From: Caldilineaceae bacterium
GTDB lineage: Bacteria; Chloroflexota; Anaerolineae; Caldilineales; Caldilineaceae
Direction of reading: 5' to 3'
Length of the DNA stretch: 64,000 nucleotides
Assembly: GCA_022821545.1 (NCBI GenBank)
Contig: JAJEDJ010000036.1
Span: 124,001 to 188,000, forward strand
Made by a program: the position numbers and the translations under genes. Position 1 is the first letter of the stretch, and every line of letters starts with the position of its first letter. Under the pieces are notes generated by a model. The model was not told where the DNA came from, ran no database searches, and saw only the letters and a list, made by a program, of their open reading frames with translations. Positions 47,979 through 64,000 of the stretch are shown piece by piece.

Positions 47979-48089
47979 CAGCCAAGACGAACTGCCTACT
48001 CAACCCGCCGCCATGCGCCAGTTCACTGTGTAACGTTTCTCGAATACCCGCTTTCACATCGTTCACCCTATATGAAACCGGAGCCGAAC

Positions 48090-49109
48090 ATGAGAATCTG
48101 CGTTTACGCAACCCTGCCCGACCAGGACAATTTCCTCGGCTTTCTCAAACAGTACGACATACTTGACGTCGCCCTCAGCTCCACCTCCCATCCCGAACAC
48201 CGGACACGCTTCTCACCCGAAGCGGCCGTTAAACCCGGCGCCTTCTGGGATTTCCAGACCCTGCTGTGGGCGCGCAACCAGTGCGAAGAAGCCGGTCTCA
48301 ACCTCGTTTCGATCGAGAATCCCCTGCCGAACTGGTGCTATGAAAAGATCGTACTGGGCCAGGAAGGCCGCGACCAGCAGATCGACAATGTCGCCGAGAC
48401 GATTCGCAACATGGGCCGGGCCGGCATTCCGGTCTACGGCTACCATTGGATGGTGAATCAGCCGGGTGTCACCCGCAACTCCTGGCGCACCTCGCTCACG
48501 ACACCCGGTCGCGGCAACGCACAGGTCAGCAGTTTCGAGCTGGAGCTGGCCGATCGCGGCCCCCTCTTCCGTGAACGTGAGTACAGTCATGAGGAGATGT
48601 GGAGCAACTACGAATACTTCATCAAGGCCATCATCCCGGTGGCCGAGGAGGCCGGCGTCAGACTGGCCCTCCATCCCGACGACCCGCCCGTTGAAAAGCT
48701 GGGCGGCATGCCGCGTCTGTTCTACAATCCGGAAGGTTTTCAGCGCGCGATGGAGATCGCCGACAGCCCGGCAAGCGGCCTCAACTTCTGTCTTGGCAAC
48801 TGGACCGCCATGAACGTTGACATCCACTCCGCCATCCGTCGCTTTGGCGGTCGCGGGCAGATCGTCTACGGTCATGTCCAGGGCGTACAGGGCACCGCGC
48901 CCGATTTCCGCGAATGTTTCCTCGAAGAGGCCGACTGCGATTTTCTGGAGATATTCAAGACGTTCAGAGAAGTTGGCTTCACTGGCGCCCTCATTCCCGG
49001 CCATTTCCCCCATACGATCTACGACGACCAGAGCCCGCATCAAGGGCTGCTCTACTCGGCCGGTTACATCAAAGGGCTTCTCCGGTCACTCGAGGCAGAC
49101 AAACCGTAG
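48090..49109 (+). CDS. Mannonate dehydratase (UxuA)-like TIM-barrel protein
   Basis: A 339-aa protein related to UxuA, which dehydrates D-mannonate to 2-keto-3-deoxygluconate. LALHPDDPP (about 195-203) and FCLGNWTAM (about 233-241) and YGHVQGVQG are characteristic, as are IENPLPNW and IPVYGYHWM. The ATG at 48090 has CGGAG 6 nt upstream; an earlier ATG at 48072 has no ribosome site. It is shorter than E. coli UxuA (394 aa), so a related sugar-acid dehydratase or isomerase is possible. Context of dehydrogenases and a sugar importer fits uronate or aldonate use. Confidence 0.83.
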   Translation: MRICVYATLPDQDNFLGFLKQYDILDVALSSTSHPEHRTRFSPEAAVKPGAFWDFQTLLWARNQCEEAGLNLVSIENPLPNWCYEKIVLGQEGRDQQIDNVAETIRNMGRAGIPVYGYHWMVNQPGVTRNSWRTSLTTPGRGNAQVSSFELELADRGPLFREREYSHEEMWSNYEYFIKAIIPVAEEAGVRLALHPDDPPVEKLGGMPRLFYNPEGFQRAMEIADSPASGLNFCLGNWTAMNVDIHSAIRRFGGRGQIVYGHVQGVQGTAPDFRECFLEEADCDFLEIFKTFREVGFTGALIPGHFPHTIYDDQSPHQGLLYSAGYIKGLLRSLEADKP

Positions 49110-51530: not shown

Positions 51531-52847
51531 ATGAAGTCGCACAACTCGAGTCGCCGTGAGTTCCTCAAGATTACCGGTCTTAGCGGCCTCGGAATGGCAA
51601 TGGCCGCCTGCGTTCCCGCACAGCCCGGCATGGAAGGCGCAGCCGCCGACGAAGAACCGATCGAACTCTCTCTTTGGGGTTGGTGGGACATCCGCATGGA
51701 TCTCTACCGCAGCGTAGCCGACCAATTCGCAGAACAAAACGATCGAATCACTGTCGATGTCCAGTCGATTGCCGGAGGCTACGTGGAGAAGCTCTACTCA
51801 GCCCTCGCGGCCGGCACCGGGCCGAACATGATCAAAATGCGTTCCCTCGCCTTCATGCACCAGATGCGCGAAGAGAATCTCGTCCTTGAGTTCCCCGAGG
51901 AAATCTTCCCGCCCAGCTGGTTCGAAGAGGCCTACCCCCTCTTTGATATCAAGACCAACGGGCGCTACGTGCTTCCCACCGGCACCACCTGTACACTCAT
52001 GATGTACAACAAGCAGATGTTTGAAGAAGCCGGCCTGGATCCTGAATCGCCCCCCAAGACCTGGGACGACCTGATCACCGCAGCCAAGGCGGTCACCCAG
52101 AAGGACGGTACCGGCGCCATCTCCCGCGCCGGCTTCGCCGTCACCGACGAATGGCCCGTCTTGAGCCAGATCTATCAGCTGGGCGGCAACGTCATCCAGA
52201 ACAATGGCGATGAACAGATCTCCCTCATGACCAGCCCGGAAGTCCATGAGGCATTCACCCACATCGCCAACCTGGCCCTGGAGCACGAAGTCTGGGATCC
52301 CGGCTTCCCCAACTTCGACTCCGTCGGCAACGGCCTCGCCGCCATGACCGAGGAACAGACCTGGGTGATCGGTGAGTACATCAACACCTATCCCGATATG
52401 TACCCCCACATCGGCTACACGCACCCGCCAACACCAACCGGCGAAGCCGACCCGCTCTATGGCTACAAAGACACCGTAACCTCAATCTCTGCCGTGACCG
52501 GCCACCCCGAAAACGATGGCGATACGTGGGAGTTTATGGAATACCTCTACAAGGACGGCGGCAAAGACGCCTACTGGGCCCTGTGCGAACTGATCTCGCT
52601 CGTGCCGGAGCGCGCAGACCTCATGTCCGATCCCAGGCTGCTGGAAACGCCCGGCCTTAGAGAGGCCTCTGAAGTCAATCCCTATGAACGCAACTACGCC
52701 GCCGTGCCCGAACGCGCCGGCGCCGTCCAAAACGACGTCCTGCATCTGATCGTCAGAGAGGGACGCCCGGTGGCCGAGGCCCTGGAGTACGGCGACGCCG
52801 AGATCCAGAAGATCATCGACGAGGGCTTGGCCAAGTACTGGGTCTAG
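51531..52847 (+). CDS. Extracellular solute-binding protein, family 1 (sugar), Tat lipoprotein
   Basis: A 438-aa sugar-binding protein. The N-terminus holds both a twin-arginine motif (SRREFLK) and a lipobox (AMAAC, acylated Cys near 24), so it is a folded-export lipoprotein. The mature protein has the family 1 pattern IELSLWGWWDIRMDLYRSVA, PNMIKMRSLAF and a central WDDLITAAKAVT segment. It delivers mono- or oligosaccharide to the two permeases that follow. No ATPase is in the operon; a shared MsmX/UgpC-type ATPase elsewhere is expected. Confidence 0.93.
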   Translation: MKSHNSSRREFLKITGLSGLGMAMAACVPAQPGMEGAAADEEPIELSLWGWWDIRMDLYRSVADQFAEQNDRITVDVQSIAGGYVEKLYSALAAGTGPNMIKMRSLAFMHQMREENLVLEFPEEIFPPSWFEEAYPLFDIKTNGRYVLPTGTTCTLMMYNKQMFEEAGLDPESPPKTWDDLITAAKAVTQKDGTGAISRAGFAVTDEWPVLSQIYQLGGNVIQNNGDEQISLMTSPEVHEAFTHIANLALEHEVWDPGFPNFDSVGNGLAAMTEEQTWVIGEYINTYPDMYPHIGYTHPPTPTGEADPLYGYKDTVTSISAVTGHPENDGDTWEFMEYLYKDGGKDAYWALCELISLVPERADLMSDPRLLETPGLREASEVNPYERNYAAVPERAGAVQNDVLHLIVREGRPVAEALEYGDAEIQKIIDEGLAKYWV

Positions 52848-52891
52848 GCCGGACAGTCGGCATGCTGCGCATGCTATCCGTCGAAAGTGAA

Positions 52892-52920
52892 ACTCCCACG
52901 CCTGCGGTAGGCGTGGGAGT
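52892..52920. repeat. Strong intergenic hairpin between binding protein and permease genes
   Basis: A perfect 12-bp stem (ACTCCCACGCCT/AGGCGTGGGAGT) with a 5-nt loop lies 45 bp after the binding-protein stop. No T-run follows. It probably stabilises the upstream mRNA end or reduces read-through so that binding protein exceeds permease. Confidence 0.8.
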
Positions 52921-53025
52921 CGCCATATCCAAATCATATCCGGTCCGCGAGCGCGTACTGCCCGGCCGGTTGGGGTCGGGCAGACGATCACGAATCGACC
53001 TGTGATCCGCGTGGGAGGCGATGTG

Positions 53026-53943
53026 ATGATTCAAACCTTCGTACAGAGATTTACAGGCAACCGGTCCACGCTGCGCGCCGCCGAGCACCGTTTCATCGTC
53101 ATCGCCCTCATTCCCACCATCCTCTTCTACGCGATCGTCAAGTTCTACCCCATCTTCTTCTCATTCTTCATCAGCATGCACGAATGGAGCCTCTTCGGAA
53201 ACGTCTCCCCCTTTGTCGGTTTCGACAACTACGCCCTCCTGGCCAAGGATTCGCTCTTCTACAAGGTCATGTGGAACACCATGTACCGCACTTTCGCCGG
53301 TACATTTCTCGGCGCATTCTGTTCCCTCATCGTCGCTCTCATCCTCAATCCCATCAAACGCGGCAGCATCCTCCTGCGCCTGATCTATTTTCTGCCCGTG
53401 ATGACCTCCGTTATCGCCAGCGCCACCATCTGGAAATGGATGCTCCAGACCCGTTTCGGCCTGCTCAATCAACTCCTCAGCGTCGTGGGCATCCAACCGG
53501 TCCCCTGGCTCCAGTCCACCACCTGGGCCATGCCCAGCATCATCGTGATGGGAATTTGGGGCGGGATCGGTTTCACCGTCATCATCTATCTCGCCGGCCT
53601 GAAGGGAATACCCAGGGACTATTACGAAGCTGCCGAAATCGACGGTGCCAGCAGCATCCAACTGGCCCTCAAGATCACTCTGCCCCTGCTCAAACCGGTC
53701 GTCTCCTTCGTTCTCATCACCGGCGTTATCGGCGGCTTCAGCGGCGGCTTCCAGGCCATCTACATGATGACGGGCGGCGGTCCGCTCGACTCGACCAGGG
53801 TGCTGGCGCTCCACATTTACGACTACGCCTTCCAGCGCATGTTCATGGGCCAGGCCTCCAGCATGTCATTCGTCCTCTTCGCCATCGTTCTCATCCTTAC
53901 TCTGGTCCAGTTCAAACTGCAACGGGTCGACTGGGAACTATGA
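53026..53943 (+). CDS. Sugar ABC transporter permease, MalF type
   Basis: A 305-aa permease with six helices. The N-terminal helix is followed by a periplasmic loop, and the cytoplasmic EAA loop reads YYEAAEIDGASSIQLALKITLPLLKP. GGGAGG lies 9 nt before the ATG at 53026; a GTG eight codons earlier is open but less likely. It forms a heterodimer with the next permease. Confidence 0.92.
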   Translation: MIQTFVQRFTGNRSTLRAAEHRFIVIALIPTILFYAIVKFYPIFFSFFISMHEWSLFGNVSPFVGFDNYALLAKDSLFYKVMWNTMYRTFAGTFLGAFCSLIVALILNPIKRGSILLRLIYFLPVMTSVIASATIWKWMLQTRFGLLNQLLSVVGIQPVPWLQSTTWAMPSIIVMGIWGGIGFTVIIYLAGLKGIPRDYYEAAEIDGASSIQLALKITLPLLKPVVSFVLITGVIGGFSGGFQAIYMMTGGGPLDSTRVLALHIYDYAFQRMFMGQASSMSFVLFAIVLILTLVQFKLQRVDWEL

Positions 53944-54006
53944 CTTTCTTTCATACCCGGCGCAGCCATTCTTCCATTCTGCGCCGGTTCTTTTCCGGAG
54001 TAACGA

Positions 54007-54903
54007 ATGGCTAATCAAGACTTTGTCGGCGTGCCGAGTCAGATCGATACCCAGTCTCTCAGCGGCGCCAGTTCCGAATTCCAGCGTCTGCGCCGCGGCC
54101 TGTTGTTCAACTATCTCGTCCTCGGCGCCGGCGCCATCCTGATGGTCGTACCCTTCATCTGGATGATCAGCACCTCCTTCAAACCGCAGGCTGAAACCGT
54201 CTCCTTCCCGCCCCGCCTCTTCCCCATCAGTCCCACGATCTCGAACTATATTGATGTTTTCGACCGCGCCAACATGGGCCGCCTCTATTGGAATACCACT
54301 TTCATCAGCGTCATAAAGACCGTTTTCAACATCTACACCAGCGCGCTCCTGGGCTACATCTTCGGCAAATTCGTCTTCCGCGGACGGGACATTATCTTTT
54401 ACATCCTGCTCAGCACCTGGATCATCCCCTTTGAAGTCTATCTGATCCCGCTCTACCTCATGACCGTCCAGGTCGGTTGGGCCGATACCTTTACCGCCCT
54501 GATCGTGCCCGAGATTTTCACCGTCTACGCCATGTTCATGTTCCGCCAGTTCATGTACACGATCCCCACCGAGCTGATCGACGCCGCCCGCATCGACGGC
54601 GCCGGCGAATGGTACATCTTCCACCGCATTATCATCCCACTTTCCAGGGCTGCCCTCTTCACCCTCGTCGCGTTCTATTTCATGTGGAACTGGAACGACT
54701 TCCTCTGGCCCCTCGTCGTCATCTCCGACCACGACAAATACGTCATCACAGTCGGATTGGCAACCTTCGTGGGCGAATTCTGGAACCAGTACGGCGTCAT
54801 CATGGCCGGCGCCAGCCTCGCCATCATCCCCATCCTCGCCCTCTTCATCGCGGTCCAGCGCTTCATCATCGAGGGCGTCGTCCTCACCGGTCTCAAGGGC
54901 TGA
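54007..54903 (+). CDS. Sugar ABC transporter permease, MalG type
   Basis: A 298-aa permease. A cytoplasmic N-terminus of about 35 residues precedes six helices. The EAA loop is LIDAARIDGAGEWYIFHRIIIPLSRAAL, given as residues 193-220. FKPQAE after the first helix and the C-terminal ...VLTGLKG are typical of the MalG-type family. It ends the operon, 37 bp before the convergent GHL10-like gene. Confidence 0.92.
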   Translation: MANQDFVGVPSQIDTQSLSGASSEFQRLRRGLLFNYLVLGAGAILMVVPFIWMISTSFKPQAETVSFPPRLFPISPTISNYIDVFDRANMGRLYWNTTFISVIKTVFNIYTSALLGYIFGKFVFRGRDIIFYILLSTWIIPFEVYLIPLYLMTVQVGWADTFTALIVPEIFTVYAMFMFRQFMYTIPTELIDAARIDGAGEWYIFHRIIIPLSRAALFTLVAFYFMWNWNDFLWPLVVISDHDKYVITVGLATFVGEFWNQYGVIMAGASLAIIPILALFIAVQRFIIEGVVLTGLKG

Positions 54904-54940: not shown

Positions 54941-56605
54941 TCAGGCCGACCAGTAGGGCGAGTAGCTGTCCATATGGTGACCGCCCAAACTGTGCAAAGG
55001 CACTTGCCGGTACGCAGGCCACTCGTCAGCCGCCCACTCCTTCAGCTCCTCTTTATGCCCCAAACGCCGTATCATGCTCCATTCGTCCAGGAAGGGGTAG
55101 CGGCTGTTGGTGTCCCAGAAAGCCAGTCCGTCGACACCTGCTGCGTAGCAGTCCAATGCCCGATCCCTGTACTCCTGCGCCGGCATCCGTCGCGGCAAGA
55201 TGTCGGCGTAAACCTGGCAGTCAGTGCCGCGCGTGACCTCTACGAAGGAGGCAACATCGACATCCATATCCCCGTGCCAGGGGTTGGGAATGATGAAATC
55301 AACCAACCCTTCCCCAGCCCAGGCTGCCACATCCAGGCCATACTGAAGATTGTACGGCAGCGTGTTGATGACGTAAGCCGATACTTGAATATGTCTCCCC
55401 TGCCGCTCGCCCACCCTGTCCATCTCCTCGCGAAGGGCACGCATGAATGAGGTCATCCAACTTGCCCTGTAGGATAACCAGCGGGGATCATCCTCCTGCA
55501 GCTGCCGGGGATCCTGTCCGTGCAGCTTCTGAAATCCTTCCACGACGGGCTGCTCGTAGAGGACACACGGCAGGCCGCGGATAAAGGCCATGTTGACGCC
55601 GTCCGCCCCTCGCTCGGCCACCTCGCGGAAGAGCGAGATCACAAAGTCCTGGACACCCGGAAAGGCATAGCTCAGGCGGGCGACGGGCCGACCGTCCCGG
55701 TCCAGGCAGCGCCATTCAGGATGCCGGCGATAGAGCCCCTCTTCCATATCATCCGGTGGAGGGAAAACCCAACCGCCCACTCGGTACGTGCCATGCAGCT
55801 CGATACCCAGATCGTGGGCGTGGTCGATCACCGTCTTGAGGGGGTCAATCCCCCTTTCCTTCAGAGTACGGAAGCTTTCTGCCGCCTGGCGATCGCAGTG
55901 CCGCGAAAAGCTGCTCATCCCCTTCTTTTCAGCGAGTTCGCCGACATCTGACAGGTACTGCACCATGCTGCCGGCGCCGATTCCCCACAGAAGCTTTCGG
56001 AAGTCGGTATTTCGAAAGGGTTCTACCTCCTCAATGATGTCTTCCTCGGTGTACAGCGTTCGTTCGCCGAAAACGCTCCAGGCGTCGTTGTAAGCGACAA
56101 GCCGTTTCGTATCGCTTCCGGCGCGATCCTTTTGGACGGCGGCAGCCTCTTCAGGGGTCAGAGGCTCCAACTTCACGTAGGCGATCCCGGACGCCCAGGG
56201 CGTGCCGGTGTTCTGCTGGCCGATGTGCAACGCCTGGCCTGTCAGATCGGCGCATCTCCAAAACACTTCGCCGATACTTGCGAAATAGTTCGTCTTCTTT
56301 ATGTCCGGATACAGCGTCGTAACCGTGGCGAAGCACGGGTCATCCGTCAACTTGACCCGGACCAACCTGTCCACCCAATTGGTCCAGATTCCCAGGTGGA
56401 CGGCATACCATCCTTGCATGTCCAGGGGCAGGGTAAGCGCGGGCGCGTCGGACTCGATGCCGGCCATTATCATTGTGCCGGACACGCCTTCCGCTTCGTA
56501 GGGGATCGCCCGCCAGCGACCATGCTCAGCGCTCTCTGAAATGGCCGATCCAGGCTGACAGCGGTCCAGATCGGAGATGTAGACGGCCTTGCGTTCTGCG
56601 CACAT
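54941..56605 (-). CDS. Two-domain TIM-barrel protein, GHL10-like, paralogue B
   Basis: A 554-aa protein of a family I cannot name. An N-terminal beta-rich domain (about 1-150, with LPLDMQGWYAVHLGIW and DLTGQALHIGQQNTG) precedes a TIM-barrel-like C-terminal part (about 200-540) that resembles the putative glycosyl hydrolase-like family 10: AHDLGIELHGTYRV, DGRPVARLSYAFPGVQDFV, ADGVNMAFIRGLPCVLYEQP and GLAFWDTNSRYP. The start at 56605 is fixed by GGAGGG 6 nt upstream. It shares this architecture and many motifs with the gene upstream (56628-58313), 22 bp away. A carbohydrate-active role is inferred from fold and operon. Confidence 0.6.
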   Translation of the reverse strand: MCAERKAVYISDLDRCQPGSAISESAEHGRWRAIPYEAEGVSGTMIMAGIESDAPALTLPLDMQGWYAVHLGIWTNWVDRLVRVKLTDDPCFATVTTLYPDIKKTNYFASIGEVFWRCADLTGQALHIGQQNTGTPWASGIAYVKLEPLTPEEAAAVQKDRAGSDTKRLVAYNDAWSVFGERTLYTEEDIIEEVEPFRNTDFRKLLWGIGAGSMVQYLSDVGELAEKKGMSSFSRHCDRQAAESFRTLKERGIDPLKTVIDHAHDLGIELHGTYRVGGWVFPPPDDMEEGLYRRHPEWRCLDRDGRPVARLSYAFPGVQDFVISLFREVAERGADGVNMAFIRGLPCVLYEQPVVEGFQKLHGQDPRQLQEDDPRWLSYRASWMTSFMRALREEMDRVGERQGRHIQVSAYVINTLPYNLQYGLDVAAWAGEGLVDFIIPNPWHGDMDVDVASFVEVTRGTDCQVYADILPRRMPAQEYRDRALDCYAAGVDGLAFWDTNSRYPFLDEWSMIRRLGHKEELKEWAADEWPAYRQVPLHSLGGHHMDSYSPYWSA

Positions 56606-56627
56606 GGAAACCCTCCTCAATCCTCTC

Positions 56628-58313
56628 TCATCCCCCGGTGTAGATGACAAGCAGCTCAGGAGGCCATCCCGAGGGAACGTTCTTGTCTACCGTCTGCGAA
56701 AAGTCCCGGCCTCGAATCGTGATCAGCCTGGTCCGCTTCATCTTTGGATAGTGTTCCGGTTTCGGTAGATCGATGACTTCGTCGCGGTGACCCAGCCGGC
56801 TTTCTATTGCCCAGGTTTCAGGGCGCGTTGTGTTGATGTCCCAAATGGCCATCCCGTCCATCCCGCCAGCGTATGCGTGCTTCATCGTCAGCACCTTATC
56901 TTCTTTCGTGGACACCATGTACACTTGGCATCCGTTCTCCTTGGCCAGCTTGATCAGATCTGAAGGAGGATTCGTGATGATGAAGTCGACCAGTTTTTCC
57001 TCCACCCAGGTGTAGGCATCGTAGGCGAAATAGCGCATGTCCTCACTGCCGCCTTCAAAGATCGCGGACACCTGCATTTTGCGTCCTCTCTTCTCCCCGC
57101 GCCGGTCCGCCGCCTTCCTTACGGCCCGCAGGAACTCCGTCAGAAAGCTCGCTTTGACTCTGTAGAGCCGCTCATCGTCATCAGCCACCTCGCGCGCGTC
57201 GAGTCCATACAGCCGTTTGAACTCGTCCAGCACCGGCTGCTCGTAGCCGATGTACTCCGGTCCGCGCGTGAAGCACAGGTGTACTCCGTCGATGTCGTAC
57301 TCCATCCCCTCCTCCATCAGGGAGACCATGAAATCCCGCACCTTCGGGAACGCATAGCTGGCCTTCATCAGCGGAGAGCCATCCCTGGCCACAATCCGGC
57401 AATCCGGATTGTCCCGAAGAAAACTGGTCTCTGTCGAGAAGAAGAAGTAGGGTTGCGCTTTGTCGACGATGCTCAGCCGATAATAGGTGTGAAACTCCAG
57501 TCCCAGCTCATGGGCATACTCCATCGCCGCCGCGAAGGGGACTATGCCCTGGTCCGCCAGCGCCCTGTGGCTTTTGAGCGCGTGTTCGTGGCGCAATACG
57601 GGGGACACCCCATTCTCGGTACCGTAGAAACGGCCTACCTTGGAGTGATAGTAGGTCAAATCGCTCAGGTTTACGCCCCACAGCACCTTTCCCACATCGG
57701 CGTATCGAAATGGCTCTATCTGCTCCTGCAGCTCCTCTCTCGTCGCCGGACACATCTGGTGAAACAGCCCCTCGCCATCAATCATGCCAATGACCCTGCG
57801 CGTCTCTCTCTGCTCCCGGTCACGCTGGATGTCTTCCACCTCCGCCTGCGAAAGCGGCAACAGCTTAACGTAAGCGACACACGCAAGGGTCGGGGGATGA
57901 GCGGTATTCTGCTTGCTGAAGAGCAGGTCCTGGCCCGTCAGGTCGGCAAAGCGGGGAAACGTCTCGACGAGTTCCGTCCTGTCCCAATGACACCCCGGCA
58001 GCGATGGGCTCTGGACATAGTGCTCAGCAACGGTATACACGGCCTCACCGGACAGCCTGTATTTGACCAGGCTTGTGTGTTCCTGCTCCACTCCGGGCCA
58101 GAAGCCGATGCTGAACGCATGCCAGCCCTGTACGTTCAGAGGCAATGTAATGGCCGGTGTCTCGTACAGGGCGTGGGCGAAGGCCATCTTGCCGGCCAGG
58201 CCTTGCTCGGCTGTGTAGTCCACCACCTGCCACTTGTGCCTCTCCGGCATTGTTGACAGTGCATTCCGAGGCAGACATTCGGACATGTCGGTCAGGTAAA
58301 TAACCTCTGCCAT
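56628..58313 (-). CDS. Two-domain TIM-barrel protein, GHL10-like, paralogue A
   Basis: A 561-aa paralogue of the next gene. Matching blocks are LPLNVQGWHAFSIGFW, DLTGQDLLFSKQNTA, LWGVNLSDLTYYHSKVG, AHELGLEFHTYYRL, KASYAFPKVRDFMVSLMEE, DGVHLCFTRGPEYIGYEQPV and GMAIWDINTTRP. The start at 58313 has GGAGGGGA directly upstream. Neither protein shows a signal peptide, so they act in the cytoplasm. It follows the DppC-like permease gene by 145 bp on the same strand, suggesting it processes what the importer brings in. The catalytic residues are not known. Confidence 0.6.
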   Translation of the reverse strand: MAEVIYLTDMSECLPRNALSTMPERHKWQVVDYTAEQGLAGKMAFAHALYETPAITLPLNVQGWHAFSIGFWPGVEQEHTSLVKYRLSGEAVYTVAEHYVQSPSLPGCHWDRTELVETFPRFADLTGQDLLFSKQNTAHPPTLACVAYVKLLPLSQAEVEDIQRDREQRETRRVIGMIDGEGLFHQMCPATREELQEQIEPFRYADVGKVLWGVNLSDLTYYHSKVGRFYGTENGVSPVLRHEHALKSHRALADQGIVPFAAAMEYAHELGLEFHTYYRLSIVDKAQPYFFFSTETSFLRDNPDCRIVARDGSPLMKASYAFPKVRDFMVSLMEEGMEYDIDGVHLCFTRGPEYIGYEQPVLDEFKRLYGLDAREVADDDERLYRVKASFLTEFLRAVRKAADRRGEKRGRKMQVSAIFEGGSEDMRYFAYDAYTWVEEKLVDFIITNPPSDLIKLAKENGCQVYMVSTKEDKVLTMKHAYAGGMDGMAIWDINTTRPETWAIESRLGHRDEVIDLPKPEHYPKMKRTRLITIRGRDFSQTVDKNVPSGWPPELLVIYTGG

Positions 58314-58458: not shown

Positions 58459-59394
58459 TCAGTCCAGCATCGTGCGCGGGTCGAGAGCGTCGCGCAAGCC
58501 GTCGCCAATGAAGTTGATGCTCAGAACGGTGATTGCAATCATCGCGCCCGGCGGCATCCATATCCAGGGCCTTCTCTCAAGTGTTGTGAGCGACGTCGCC
58601 GCGCTTAACATCTGACCCCAACTGGGCCGCGGCGCCTGCACGCCGAGACCCAGGAAACTCAGACCCGCCTCGGCCATGATGGCGCCGGCGATGCCGAAGG
58701 TGGCGGCCACCACCAGGGGACCCACCACGTTGGGCAGAATATGGCGGAAGATGATACCGCGCTCGGTCGCGCCCAAGCAGCGCGCCGCCATGACGAAATC
58801 GCGTTCGCTGAGCGACAGGAACTCTCCCCGCACCAGGCGGGCGATGCTCGGCCACCCCAATAGACCGAGGATAATCATGATATTGAAGATGCTGGGGCCT
58901 ATGACGGCAACGAGGGTCAGGATGATGAGCAAACTGGGGAAGCACATCACGATGTCGGTGATACGCATGATGATAAAATCGGTCACGCCGCCCCGGTATC
59001 CGCTCACTCCGCCCAGGACGGTGCCGATGGAAATATAGATTGAGGTCGCTATCAGCCCCACCGAGAGGGAAACGCGGCCGCCGTGGAGAATACGGGCAAG
59101 CATGTCTCGTCCGGAGCGGTCGGTGCCCAGGATGTGCTCTGAACTGGGCGGCGCCCGCAGGTTTTGCAGGTCGGCCGTGTAGGGGTCATTGGGGCTGCTG
59201 AGAAGAGGGGCGAAAATGGCGGCAAACGCCAGCACAATCATGATGGCAATCGATACCAGCGCAAGCCGGTGCCGGCGAAAACGGCGCCAGATGAGTTCGC
59301 GCAGACCGACGACCGCCTGCCCGCGCACCATATGTTGCAGGTCTTCGCTGACAAGCGACGCCTGCCTTTCTCTTCCTTTCTCTTCGCCTTCCAT
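58459..59394 (-). CDS. Peptide/oligosaccharide ABC transporter permease, DppC type
   Basis: A 311-aa permease of the dipeptide/oligopeptide/nickel family. A charged cytoplasmic N-terminus precedes helix 1 (about 45-67). The segment HILGTDRSGRDMLARILHGGRVSLSVG is diagnostic, and the EAA loop reads VMAARCLGATERGIIFRHILPN. It partners the DppB-type permease encoded 68 bp upstream. Confidence 0.93.
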   Translation of the reverse strand: MEGEEKGRERQASLVSEDLQHMVRGQAVVGLRELIWRRFRRHRLALVSIAIMIVLAFAAIFAPLLSSPNDPYTADLQNLRAPPSSEHILGTDRSGRDMLARILHGGRVSLSVGLIATSIYISIGTVLGGVSGYRGGVTDFIIMRITDIVMCFPSLLIILTLVAVIGPSIFNIMIILGLLGWPSIARLVRGEFLSLSERDFVMAARCLGATERGIIFRHILPNVVGPLVVAATFGIAGAIMAEAGLSFLGLGVQAPRPSWGQMLSAATSLTTLERRPWIWMPPGAMIAITVLSINFIGDGLRDALDPRTMLD

Positions 59395-59462: not shown

Positions 59463-60422
59463 CTACTCATAGCGGATTCTGGGGTCCACAACGGTATAGA
59501 CTATGTCGGCGACCAGATTGCTGAGCAGAACCATGGTCGCAGAGACGAGACCGATTCCCATGATCACGGGGTAATCCCTGCCCAGCGTGTGCTCGATCGC
59601 CATGCGGGCCATGCCGGGCCAGGAGAAGAGGACTTCGATGAAGAGTGCGCCGCCAATCAAGCTGGGCAGACTCAAACCGACAATGGTCACCAACGGCAGC
59701 AGGGCATTGCGCAGAATGTGACCAATGCGGACAGCGCGTTCGCGCAGCCCTTTAGCCCGCGCAGTTGTTACGTAATCCTGGCGCATCACCTCCAGGACGC
59801 TGGAGCGTGTGTAGCGCAGATAACCGGCTACCCCTTCAATCCCCAGAACGGTGGCCGGAAGCACCAGGTGATGGAGTCGGTCGATGATTGGCGGGAGAGT
59901 GCTCAGTGGCTCCTTAATGCCTGAGGTCGGAAAGAGAGGTATCCTGAATGAGAACATGTAAATCGCCAGCAAGGCAAAGAAGAAGGCCGGCACCGATATG
60001 CCGATGAAGACCAATAGAGTGAATACATTGTCCAGGATTGAGTACTGGTTGAAGGCGGCATAGATGCCCAGCGAAACGCCCAGGACGATACTGATACCCA
60101 GTGCCGTCATCATCAGCTGCAAGGTCTGCGGCAACCGCTCGGCGATCATGGTGGCCACCGGCCTGTGGGTGACGTAGGAATAGCCCAGGTTGCCGCGCAG
60201 TACCTCCTTCAGCCAGATGAAATAGCGCACCGGAATCGGCCTGTTGATGCCCAGCGCCTCTTTGAGTTTTTCAACCTCACCAGGTTCTATCCCACTCATG
60301 GGGTCGATCATGGCCGTAACGGGATCGCCCGGGGCCAGGTTGGCGAAAATGAAGGTAACGACTGTGATGCCCAATAATACCGGGAAGGAGATCAGAATAC
60401 GCCGTAAGATATAGCGTCCCAA
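59463..60422 (-). CDS. Peptide/oligosaccharide ABC transporter permease, DppB type
   Basis: A 319-aa permease. YILRRILISFPVLLGITVVTF is the standard DppB N-terminus, followed by the LAPGDPV segment and the EAA loop YVTTARAKGLRERAVRIGHILRNAL. The likely start is TTG 60422, which places the first helix as in the family and has GGGAG 8 nt upstream; a GTG at 60497 would add 25 unconserved residues. Confidence 0.9.
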   Translation of the reverse strand: MGRYILRRILISFPVLLGITVVTFIFANLAPGDPVTAMIDPMSGIEPGEVEKLKEALGINRPIPVRYFIWLKEVLRGNLGYSYVTHRPVATMIAERLPQTLQLMMTALGISIVLGVSLGIYAAFNQYSILDNVFTLLVFIGISVPAFFFALLAIYMFSFRIPLFPTSGIKEPLSTLPPIIDRLHHLVLPATVLGIEGVAGYLRYTRSSVLEVMRQDYVTTARAKGLRERAVRIGHILRNALLPLVTIVGLSLPSLIGGALFIEVLFSWPGMARMAIEHTLGRDYPVIMGIGLVSATMVLLSNLVADIVYTVVDPRIRYE

Positions 60423-60614
60423 GGTGTAACTCCCTCGGTTCAACCAGAGTTCGAAGGGCGGGAGTGAGAGGGTGGGGTCGGTTTGCGCCGACCCCACCGC
60501 TGATGCTCCCCAAAGGAGAGTTGGCCCAACGTCGAAATCCTTAACCCAAAACGCCGGGCGGACCCGATATGCTTCAGTGCGGCTACGCCTCGATGCAGCT
60601 ACTTGTCAGTGCAG

Positions 60615-62309
60615 CTATTCCTCAATGTACCACTTCTCAAGGTCGGTGACAGCGCCGATCGTGGCAGATCCTTCAGGCCCAATCAGGCTGTCCCGCCAAC
60701 CCTTGACATTCTCGTGTATCAGCAACAGAGACTGGGGCGCATAGAGGGGAATCCATGGAAGCTCATCATTCCAGATGGCGGTGGCACGCGTGTACAGCTC
60801 ATTGCGTTCGTCGTCGTCAACCGTGGCGAGGGCCTGATTGTACAGTGAGTCCAGCTCCTCGTTACAGTAGCGGCTCGAGTTGTAACCGTCGGGGTAAACG
60901 CGGTCACAGCCGACAACGGTCGTGTCCGGATAGTAGGACCGCCCCCAGCCGCCGACCCAGCTGATCTCATAGTCGCCGGTCTCGTAGAAGACCTCCAGAC
61001 CCCTGGCCCCATCGGTCTGTACCAGTTTGGTCTTGATGCCCACGCCTTCTATGAACTGCTGGAGAATCGGCAGCTGATCGGGCATATCCGTGCCAAACCA
61101 GACGATTTCGACGACGCGGTCAAAGTCCCAGCCCATATCCTCCAGCAAGGCCTTGGACTTTTCGGGGTTGTAGGCATACTCCTCAATGTCCAGGGTAACA
61201 CCCGGAGGAGGCGCCCACTGCGCCACCGGCTGAACTTTCGTCAAGTCCGCGTTGCCCCAGAGTTGGGTGGCAATCTCCACACGGTCGATCGAGTACAGGA
61301 ACGCCTGCCGGAAGCGTTTGTCCGCCAATGCCTCGTCCTGGAAAGTAATGGAGAAGAAGTATGCCGGGAACTTGTCCTGGTATTCCCAGGCGACGCCGGG
61401 AAGGTTGGTGACTTTGTCGAACTCGTCAGCGCTCGGGTTCAGGAAACCGACCATGTTTATCTCACCCTTTTCCAGGGCGATGATCATTACGCTGTTGTCA
61501 CCGTAGAATCGAATCACGGCGTTCTTGAGCAGAGGCGCACCTTTGAAGTAGTTCTCGTTGCGCTCGAAGATGGTGTGCTGATCGGGGATGTACTCCTTGA
61601 ACACGAAGGGACCGGTGCCGAAAGGCAGTTCTGTGGCGAACTCCGTCTGCAGCCAGTCCTCCGGCTCAAGCCCTTCGAACACATGGGCCGGGGCGATCCG
61701 CATAGCGAACCGCTCGATGATCGTCACCTGAGGTTGGGTCAACTCAAATTGGATGGTGTAATCGTCAAGGACCTTGATCCCTTCCGCAGTCTCGGTGTTG
61801 CCTTCCTGATAGTCAATTGCGCCTACGATCGCATCCTTGAGGCCGCCAGACGCTGTCGATCCGCCTTCCGGGAGCAGCGCAGCGTGGAAGGAGAAGGAGA
61901 CGTCGTTGGCGGTAAATGGCATGCCGTCATGCCACGTTACGCCTTCGCGCAGGTGGAAAGTGTAAGTCAGGCCGTCGGGGCTGATCTCATAGCTCTCGGC
62001 CAGATCCGGAACCCACTTGAGCGTACTGTGCTCCTGCATCACCAGTGAGTTCATGAAGAGGTTCCAGTGGAAAGACTGCGCGCTGCTGTGCGCTTTCCAG
62101 GGAAGGAAGGTGGGGATTGAGGCACTGCCCTGTACAGAGCCAATCGTGAGGGTGCCCCCCTCATCGGTTTCGGCTTCTGCCGCCGCCGGGGCGTCGGCGG
62201 CCGGCGCAGCGACAGGCACACAAGCTGCGAAAACCAGGGCTGCAATGCTCAGTGCAGCCACAATAATCAGAGAACGACGGTGACCAATTCGTACACGAAA
62301 CGGGTTCAT
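60615..62309 (-). CDS. ABC transporter substrate-binding lipoprotein, SBP_bac_5 family
   Basis: A 564-aa family 5 binding protein (oligopeptide, nickel or oligosaccharide). A lipoprotein signal ends AALVFAAC with acylated Cys30, then an Ala/Pro-rich linker and the domain with LAESYEISPDGLTYTFHLREGVTWHDG, cited as residues 107-133. AAAGGAG lies 11-17 nt before the ATG. It leads an operon with two permeases and two TIM-barrel paralogues. ATPases are missing from the operon. Peptide-type importers also serve plant or host oligosaccharides; the downstream glycosidase-like genes favour that. Confidence 0.93.
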   Translation of the reverse strand: MNPFRVRIGHRRSLIIVAALSIAALVFAACVPVAAPAADAPAAAEAETDEGGTLTIGSVQGSASIPTFLPWKAHSSAQSFHWNLFMNSLVMQEHSTLKWVPDLAESYEISPDGLTYTFHLREGVTWHDGMPFTANDVSFSFHAALLPEGGSTASGGLKDAIVGAIDYQEGNTETAEGIKVLDDYTIQFELTQPQVTIIERFAMRIAPAHVFEGLEPEDWLQTEFATELPFGTGPFVFKEYIPDQHTIFERNENYFKGAPLLKNAVIRFYGDNSVMIIALEKGEINMVGFLNPSADEFDKVTNLPGVAWEYQDKFPAYFFSITFQDEALADKRFRQAFLYSIDRVEIATQLWGNADLTKVQPVAQWAPPPGVTLDIEEYAYNPEKSKALLEDMGWDFDRVVEIVWFGTDMPDQLPILQQFIEGVGIKTKLVQTDGARGLEVFYETGDYEISWVGGWGRSYYPDTTVVGCDRVYPDGYNSSRYCNEELDSLYNQALATVDDDERNELYTRATAIWNDELPWIPLYAPQSLLLIHENVKGWRDSLIGPEGSATIGAVTDLEKWYIEE

Positions 62310-62422
62310 TTCCTGATCTCCTTTCTGTAAACAGACAGAGAGCGATAGGCCCGACAAACGTTTGGTATCGAGTACTCCTTGGTTTGGCTGGTTATCACCT
62401 CCTTTGTAAATCCATCTCCCGA

Positions 62423-62467
62423 CAGACTCGCATGTTTCAGACTCGCATGATACAGACTCGCGTGATA
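62423..62467. repeat. Three tandem 15-bp repeats upstream of the binding-protein gene
   Basis: CAGACTCGCATGTTT (62423-62437), CAGACTCGCATGATA (62438-62452) and CAGACTCGCGTGATA (62453-62467) follow one another directly. They lie in the predicted leader, 114-158 bp before the start. Confidence 0.9.
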
Positions 62468-62568
62468 AGGAGACGCCAGACCGGCATCTACATCTGTTCA
62501 TGCCGGAAAGAAAAGATCTGATCCGTCTGGTTTCGCTGGACACTGCCGGGAAACATAAATATATCATT

Positions 62569-62682: not shown

Positions 62683-63507
62683 TCAGGCAAGAATCTGGCC
62701 AGGCACGCCGAAGATTTCGCGCACGTATTCCAGACTGTGTGCGTGGGCCTGGACCAGATCAAGAGAGTGGGGAGTGCCTTCTTCGCGAGCCAGCTCGACC
62801 ATGAGCCAGCCGTCAAAACTCACCTCGGCCAGCGCATGCGCCAGCGCCCGGCAATCGGGTTCGCCATCACCCAAAGTTTCATCCCAAATGCCTTCATGTG
62901 AACTCCGCAGTTCCACAATTTCAAGCCTGGATGCGAATTCACGAATCCACCCCTTGGCATCCTGACCGCCCCGGCACATCCAGTCGGCATCGACTGTCAG
63001 ACCCACGTCTCCGGCGTCGGTATGGTCCAGGAGGTGGCGCAGCTCACGACCGTTCTCGGCCAGTTCGGGCAAATGATGATGCACGACGAGACGCAAACCC
63101 TCGTTCTTCAACGCAGCGCCCAGGCGGGCGAAGCCCTGGGCCTGGACTGTCAACATCTTGTCGGTCTTGCGCGCGCCTGTGGGTTGAGGGTTGGCATTGA
63201 CAAATTCAGCTCCCATAGGTCGCAGCAACTGCGCTCTTGCGAGAATTGTTTCGATAGATTGCGCCTGCACGCAGGCATCGTGCAGCAACGCATGCACGTA
63301 TGCGCCCGCCAGCCGCAGCCCATGCCTGTCCAGAGCAGTTTGCCAGCGGCTTGCCCAATCGCCTTCTCCCTCCAGCGGATCGAGAAGCCCCTCAAAGTAG
63401 GCGTAGCCTGCGCGGGCCAAGCCGGCTGCAACCTCGTCAATGCGCTCTGTCAGAGAGTGCCAGCCGTAGTGTTGCGACCAGCGGTAAAAGCCACTGCATA
63501 CCCGCAT
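62683..63507 (-). CDS. TIM-barrel sugar isomerase/epimerase (IolE/inosose dehydratase-like)
   Basis: A 274-aa xylose isomerase-like TIM barrel. Strand-end motifs are YFEGLLDPLEG, LAGAYVHAL, GAEFVNANPQ, LVVHHHLPELAENG (metal-ligand region), VGLTVDADWMCRGG (metal Asp) and the late VELRSSHEG, with the closing WLMVELAREEGTP. The pattern fits inosose dehydratase or related epimerases. The Gfo/Idh/MocA gene lies 37 bp upstream on the same strand; that pairing is common in inositol and sugar-derivative catabolism. Confidence 0.85.
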   Translation of the reverse strand: MRVCSGFYRWSQHYGWHSLTERIDEVAAGLARAGYAYFEGLLDPLEGEGDWASRWQTALDRHGLRLAGAYVHALLHDACVQAQSIETILARAQLLRPMGAEFVNANPQPTGARKTDKMLTVQAQGFARLGAALKNEGLRLVVHHHLPELAENGRELRHLLDHTDAGDVGLTVDADWMCRGGQDAKGWIREFASRLEIVELRSSHEGIWDETLGDGEPDCRALAHALAEVSFDGWLMVELAREEGTPHSLDLVQAHAHSLEYVREIFGVPGQILA

Positions 63508-63544: not shown

Positions 63545-64000
63545 CTACCGGGATCCCAACCCCCTCACTTCGATGCTTTCGCCCGATCCAGAACTCTCAA
63601 CTGCCGCGACCGCCACTCGTATGCTTTCGAGGTTGTCGCGGCCTGAACATTCCGGCTCGCGCCCCTTTTCCAAGGCGCGCAACATCTCTCCCATGGAACC
63701 GGCGAAGCCCTCATATCCCCAGGTACCGGCGATTTCGTACGTCTGTACCTGTTCCGGGGAGTCCTTCAAAGACAGGCTTAACTTGGCCGTTCCCATGGGA
63801 TTGCTGAGCAGCGCGCTCCCGCGGGCGCCATCCAGGAACCACAGATGATCGTGGAGAGCGGGGGCGGAAACGATGTTGTTAAAGTGCAGGGTCGTCATGA
63901 CCTGTGACGAAGGTTCGTATTCAAGGAGGATTGTATAGATCATCGGGGAGACTGCATTCTGGCCGGGCATCATCGTCGTTGCCGCTTTCACCCGCAGCGG
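63545..64000 (-). CDS. Gfo/Idh/MocA family oxidoreductase, partial (C-terminal part)
   Basis: About 150 residues ending at 63545; the gene runs off the right edge of the window, so the N-terminal NAD(P)-binding domain is not seen. The visible part is the C-terminal alpha/beta domain with MTTLHFNNIVSAPALHDHLWFLDGARGSAL (given as residues near 32-61 from the internal GTG) and the closing MLRALEKGREPECSGRDNLESIRVAVAAVES, typical of the family. An internal GTG at 63991 is unlikely to be the start. It probably works with the isomerase gene that follows. Confidence 0.75.
   Translation of the reverse strand, partial: PLRVKAATTMMPGQNAVSPMIYTILLEYEPSSQVMTTLHFNNIVSAPALHDHLWFLDGARGSALLSNPMGTAKLSLSLKDSPEQVQTYEIAGTWGYEGFAGSMGEMLRALEKGREPECSGRDNLESIRVAVAAVESSGSGESIEVRGLGSR

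Follow-up and report, generated by a model that had tools for sequence, protein, structure and literature searches.

Modelling and comparative analysis of two adjacent genes in a 64,000-nucleotide stretch of a Caldilineaceae genome (hereafter, the window) suggest that their products, A and B, are cytoplasmic and probably catalytic exo-glycosidases of the GH156 type that act on the cargo, perhaps an acidic glycan, of the SBP_bac_5/DppBC importer encoded beside them; we would give this reading a probability of about one half. As the earlier note had described, the two genes encode proteins of about 555 residues: gene A (54941-56605; ATG start at 56605, stop at 54941) encodes 554 residues and gene B (56628-58313; ATG start at 58313, stop at 56628) 561, both on the minus strand and 22 bases apart. 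Upstream of both, on the same strand, lie the importer genes, which encode a DppC-type permease (58459-59394; Pfam BPD_transp_1 and OppC_N), a DppB-type permease (59463-60497; Pfam BPD_transp_1) and an SBP_bac_5 substrate-binding lipoprotein (60615-62567, start codon uncertain). Two further minus-strand genes encode an IolE/xylose-isomerase-like TIM barrel (62683-63507; assigned by Pfam, with an NCBIfam score below the cut-off) and a Gfo/Idh/MocA oxidoreductase (63545-64000, extending past the window end to about 64654). Outside the window, upstream of the operon (65776-69331), an amidase and a bifunctional rhamnulose-1-phosphate aldolase/dehydrogenase are encoded, and a second importer (SBP_bac_1 and two permeases; 51531-54903) runs on the other strand, convergent with gene A. 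Promoter and terminator scans gave counts close to those in shuffled sequence (3 versus 3.1 and 8 versus 7.0), and an Rfam search returned no match.

The placement with GH156 rests in part on the fold of the barrel (residues ~165-525 of A; 55031-56113, minus strand). The AlphaFold2 model of A, built from 27 sequences (pLDDT 83.2, pTM 0.85), had the GH156 exosialidase EnvSia156 as its first-ranked Foldseek match (E 6e-20); in VIA-align, residues 166-525 aligned to residues 6-377 of the EnvSia156 chain with Z 32.2 and an rmsd of 2.8 Å over 335 residues at 19% identity. In such comparisons Cwp19 followed (Z 27.1) and then PgaB (Z 22.8). Profile searches of the PDB led to the same enzyme, 6rzd, with E 2.1e-20 from the sequences of the genus and 3.5e-26 from a wider set. 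The published nearest fold to EnvSia156 is Cwp19, with a DALI Z of 27.2 (PMC6811678, section 7), and thus A, as modelled, is closer to GH156 than Cwp19 is. CAZy families missing from these fold listings could still have similar barrels. A model was made for A only, and the fold of B is taken from its 35% identity to A and their shared alignment.

Profile matches gave a different family label. Both proteins exceed the Pfam GHL10 (PF02638) gathering cut-off of 27.9 bits (A, 43.8; B, 40.3), no other family scored above its cut-off, and 22 of the 25 members of the sequence set A2 matched GHL10 at E 0.01 or better. The barrel had been called unrecognised and GHL10-like: the first description is right only in part, as the cut-off is passed, and GHL10 is not the most fitting label, since the active-site residues fit GH156 and the Asp of Cwp19 is missing.

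In GH156, Asp14 is the base and His134 the acid, Arg129, Arg202 and Asn346 surround the substrate carboxylate and Arg246 is invariant (PMC6811678). We read the corresponding places in 89 non-redundant family ORFs, after dropping two short ones (L021 and L095); a looser count of 104 ORFs included partial duplicates and was unused. At the Asp14 place on β1 (D174 in A, D179 in B), Asp is present in 88 of 89 ORFs, the remaining one having a gap, and the Arg129 and Arg202 places (R275 and R343 in A; R279 and R350 in B) hold Arg in 85/89 and 87/89, all three places having been set by structural offset and profile alignments. The Asn346 place on β8, read through the alignment of a related protein of the same genome since the direct EnvSia156 alignment is gapped there, is occupied by Asp (D498 in A, D492 in B; 83/89). 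With the preceding Trp (W497 in A, W491 in B), these are the residues conserved in both barrels, which the earlier note had proposed to map. The general acid is not kept: at the His134 place A has V280 and B has D284, and across the family this position is H in 18 ORFs, V in 17, Q in 17, D in 12, F in 6 and T in 6, with other residues in the rest; His occurs only in ORFs outside the genus and in none of the five genus lineages. Nor is the invariant Arg246 of GH156 kept (Y411 in A, Ile in B), or Phe203, and B is without the β6 Trp and part of the β7 region present in A. Against catalysis, then, stands the absence of His134, Asn346 and Arg246 from both proteins, and this loss could mean that catalysis has been lost as well. 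By the residues that are kept, A and B would belong with GH156 rather than with the characterized GHL10 enzymes, but because the GH156 catalytic pair is incomplete they should not be called sialidases.

EnvSia156 (PDB 6rzd, 6s00, 6s04; PMC6811678, PMC6254351) thus shares with A and B the barrel, the β1 Asp base, the β3 and β4 arginines and a GLVD-type helix motif, and differs in having His134, Asn346, Arg246 and Phe203; its β-sandwich is C-terminal, whereas that of A is N-terminal and A ends 29 residues past the aligned barrel. Might A and B nevertheless be typical GH156 sialidases, releasing sialic acid or Kdn from sialo-oligosaccharides that the importer brings in? The closest solved fold, the conserved base and both carboxylate arginines are in keeping with such a role, and sialic acid importers of the SBP_bac_5 type exist. 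Sialic acid in the sponge mesohyl is also discussed in two studies (PMC6306507, PMC8163846). The replacement of His134 and Asn346 argues against it, and the same genome encodes a better candidate (the C51 protein, L050:7835-9343). This 503-residue protein is likewise encoded between SBP_bac_5 and DppBC genes and has a related barrel (hhalign 99.5%), but it is without the N-terminal domain and keeps all five GH156 residues, with Asp7 (placed by eye), Arg90, His95, Arg173 and Asn324 as counterparts of Asp14, Arg129, His134, Arg202 and Asn346. The five are invariant in 11 orthologues, and the protein may well be a true sialidase of the GH156 family. NanE (PF04131), the usual enzyme of the sialic acid route, was not found in the organism's own genome and was found in 8 of 14 control genomes. 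Sialic acid catabolism was set aside on this ground and because the DHDPS-family gene in the C29 cluster fails all curated cut-offs, that for NanA by a wide margin. On balance, we consider a sialidase role for A and B improbable.

A second alternative follows from the Pfam match, namely that A and B, like Cwp19 and DigH, are GHL10 enzymes active on peptidoglycan and recycle muropeptides or denuded glycan strands taken up by the importer. Muropeptides are among the compounds that oligopeptide-type importers can transport, the GHL10 cut-off is passed by both proteins and Cwp19 is the second-best fold; DigH is presumably a GHL10 member too. The barrel fold is common to A, B, Cwp19 (PDB 5oq2; PMC5765458, PMC6016235) and DigH (PMC12288456). 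Yet Asp196 at the end of β4 of Cwp19, thought to be catalytic (PMC5765458), has no acidic counterpart at residues 337-350 of A or at the equivalent place of B, in a register extended a few residues beyond the alignment; an invariant Arg is found instead. A signal peptide and wall-binding repeats are described for Cwp19 (PMC6016235); A and B show neither. As no peptidoglycan recycling genes were recognized among the annotated neighbours either, this reading seems quite improbable to us.

The earlier note had also described a β-rich N-terminal domain, and the model of A bears this out: the first 164 residues (56114-56605, minus strand) form a β-sandwich ahead of the barrel, and B has the same architecture by alignment. 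This domain has no Pfam match. Modelled alone from 25 sequences (pLDDT 86.9), it matched CBM36/CBM35 β-sandwiches with Z of about 10.3-10.7, among them 7ay3 and 2w47 (Z 10.7 and 10.4 over 119 and 127 residues, 9-12% identity), and a GH26-CBM35 protein with Z 11.7; Cry-toxin domains of the same fold score like the CBMs. A CBM35/36-like β-sandwich is therefore a reasonable but not proven description of the modelled domain. Hydropathy reveals no hydrophobic N-terminal segment in A or B, so the cytoplasmic location proposed before is probable. A CBM-like domain on a barrel that has lost the GH156 acid would also suit sugar-binding sensors or scaffolds without catalysis, but the acidic and arginine pocket is near-invariant across the 89 ORFs and Pfam detects no signalling domain, which makes this very unlikely in our opinion.

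That A and B are old paralogues kept together, as had been proposed, agrees with their relationship. They align end to end with 192 of 554 positions identical (35%; BLASTP E 8e-106), and the identity is similar in the N-terminal domain (34%) and the barrel (36%). A pattern search recovered the blocks noted earlier, QGW..(F/V).(I/L)G.W, DLTGQ, SYAFP.V.DF and, of the longer G.A.WD.N.R, the part G.A.WD.N, in both proteins. In the tree, A groups with the family genes E and C, D groups with sequences from a different family in the phylum, and a deep, separate branch leads to B; the exact place of B is unsure, given the long branches of both B and the f55 sequences. Simple tandem duplication as the origin of the pair is unsupported since the two genes belong to different clades, with the same reservation about B. 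Comparison of the window copies with their orthologues gave dN/dS of 0.10-0.14 for A (10 comparisons) and 0.07-0.10 for B (11 comparisons). Both genes are thus under strong purifying selection, and neither is decaying. Some relatives carry a third, broken family gene downstream of A (L044:11066-11527, L045:11065-11526, L046:11065-11507, L038:9730-10224), with several stops in the matching genomes; the L044 remnant lies beyond a second Gfo/Idh gene. At one further locus (G007:C160:34584-36244, L059), in a genome that also has B and the SBP gene, a frameshift or an assembly error divides gene A between two overlapping frames.

A single-sequence search of 61 relatives matched 17, all within the genus, and left the 44 others without a match, which had suggested a family confined to the genus; this idea was dropped when a profile search of 400 genomes in the phylum found matches in 28, with three candidates scored per genome and copy numbers consequently lower bounds. 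In the separate search that gave the near-identical contigs, the 13th match, on a Bacteroidales contig (L048), is GH36-like by inspection and was omitted from all counts. Among the 17 genus genomes, A is present in 13, and B and the SBP gene share one set of 12; the remaining genome with A (G003, 81% complete) carries it on a contig of 3.1 kb, interrupted by an internal stop. The pair is accordingly retained with its importer in relatives, both genes being present in all 12 genus genomes that have the SBP, a co-occurrence for which a small number of gains or losses may be enough. The family genes C and D bracket SBP_bac_5, permease and DHDPS-family genes and occur together in 15/15 genomes having either; E1 and E2 occur together in 2/2 (G010, G012). 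Sulfatase and GSDH-type β-propeller genes adjoin the C/D cluster at L049, L054 and L055. All seven genus loci drawn have importer genes within five ORFs. Outside the genus pairing is not universal, many of the loci being single-copy; of 26 such loci, 9 have DppC or SBP_bac_5 within five ORFs and 9 have a DHDPS-family gene directly adjoining the family gene. With uniform placement, a gene picked at random would have an SBP_bac_5 gene within 5 kb with probability 0.11, and the recurrent proximity to importers is suggestive but not overwhelming.

Three importer loci of the genus carry two family genes each, from different clades in two of them. This arrangement would also fit a heterodimer in which one of the proteins, B being the likelier of the two, has no catalytic role and instead shapes or regulates its partner. 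B lacks loops and the β6 Trp, and in the EnvSia156 homodimer a cleft connects the two active sites (PMC6811678, section 7). On the other hand, B keeps the D/R/R/W/D set and its sequence is under slightly tighter constraint than that of A, and the EnvSia156 dimer relies on a loop of the C-terminal domain, which A does not have. We regard a non-catalytic B as possible, if unlikely, and prefer to see both proteins as GH156-type enzymes that may divide the labour between them.

The importer itself consists of the SBP_bac_5, DppB and DppC components; no OppD/F-type ATPase match was found in the window, in agreement with the earlier note, and the nearest on this contig (C24:92747-92950) lies about 86 kb from gene A. 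The genome holds 57 SBP_bac_5 matches and 46 matches to the OppD/F C-terminal domain (oligo_HPY, none in the window), a strong expansion of oligopeptide-type importers, and with so many of these genes a lone importer without ATPases is not odd here; the ATPases could be borrowed from elsewhere in the genome.

What, then, might the substrate be? The neighbourhood is sugar-catabolic, with Gfo/Idh, IolE-like and rhamnulose-phosphate aldolase genes and a UxuA-family protein (48072-49106), but these genes give no single agreed substrate. The conserved arginines favour an acidic or polar group, and the change of Asn346 to Asp disfavours the carboxylate geometry of sialic acid. In the mechanism that we envisage, the importer would bring in an oligosaccharide or glycoside from which A and B would remove terminal residues inside the cell by an inverting reaction, with D174 (A numbering) as the base, R275 and R343 holding the acidic or polar group and D498, at the Asn346 place on β8, as a candidate for the acid role that His134 has in GH156. 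The Gfo/Idh/MocA and IolE-like enzymes encoded nearby might then oxidize and rearrange the sugar that is set free. The Caldilineaceae metagenome-assembled genomes with near-identical contigs come, we assume, from marine sponges. Sponge-associated Chloroflexota are described as rich in carbohydrate-degrading genes, and uronate and sulfatase genes are reported for the symbionts (PMC6306507); together with the UxuA-family protein nearby, these genes make uronate-bearing glycans a fair guess, no more.

We found no description of the two-domain family or of the A/B pairing in the literature searched. GH156 is among the CAZy annotations of a Chloroflexota strain in a SAR202 study (PMC11994032), and part of the family may on this account already carry that label from automatic annotation. 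A bolder proposal, which we regard as a long shot, is that A and B represent a new glycosidase family in which the GH156 base is kept and the acid has moved from the β3 His to the β8 Asp, the two unlike barrels forming an obligate heterodimer, one pair per importer, so that cleavage of imported acidic glycans from the host matrix is confined to the cell interior. If the GH156-type reading is right, GH156 would be one branch of a larger group that swaps both its catalytic acid and its carboxylate anchor, and the link of this group to oligopeptide-type importers would mark those importers as sugar carriers.
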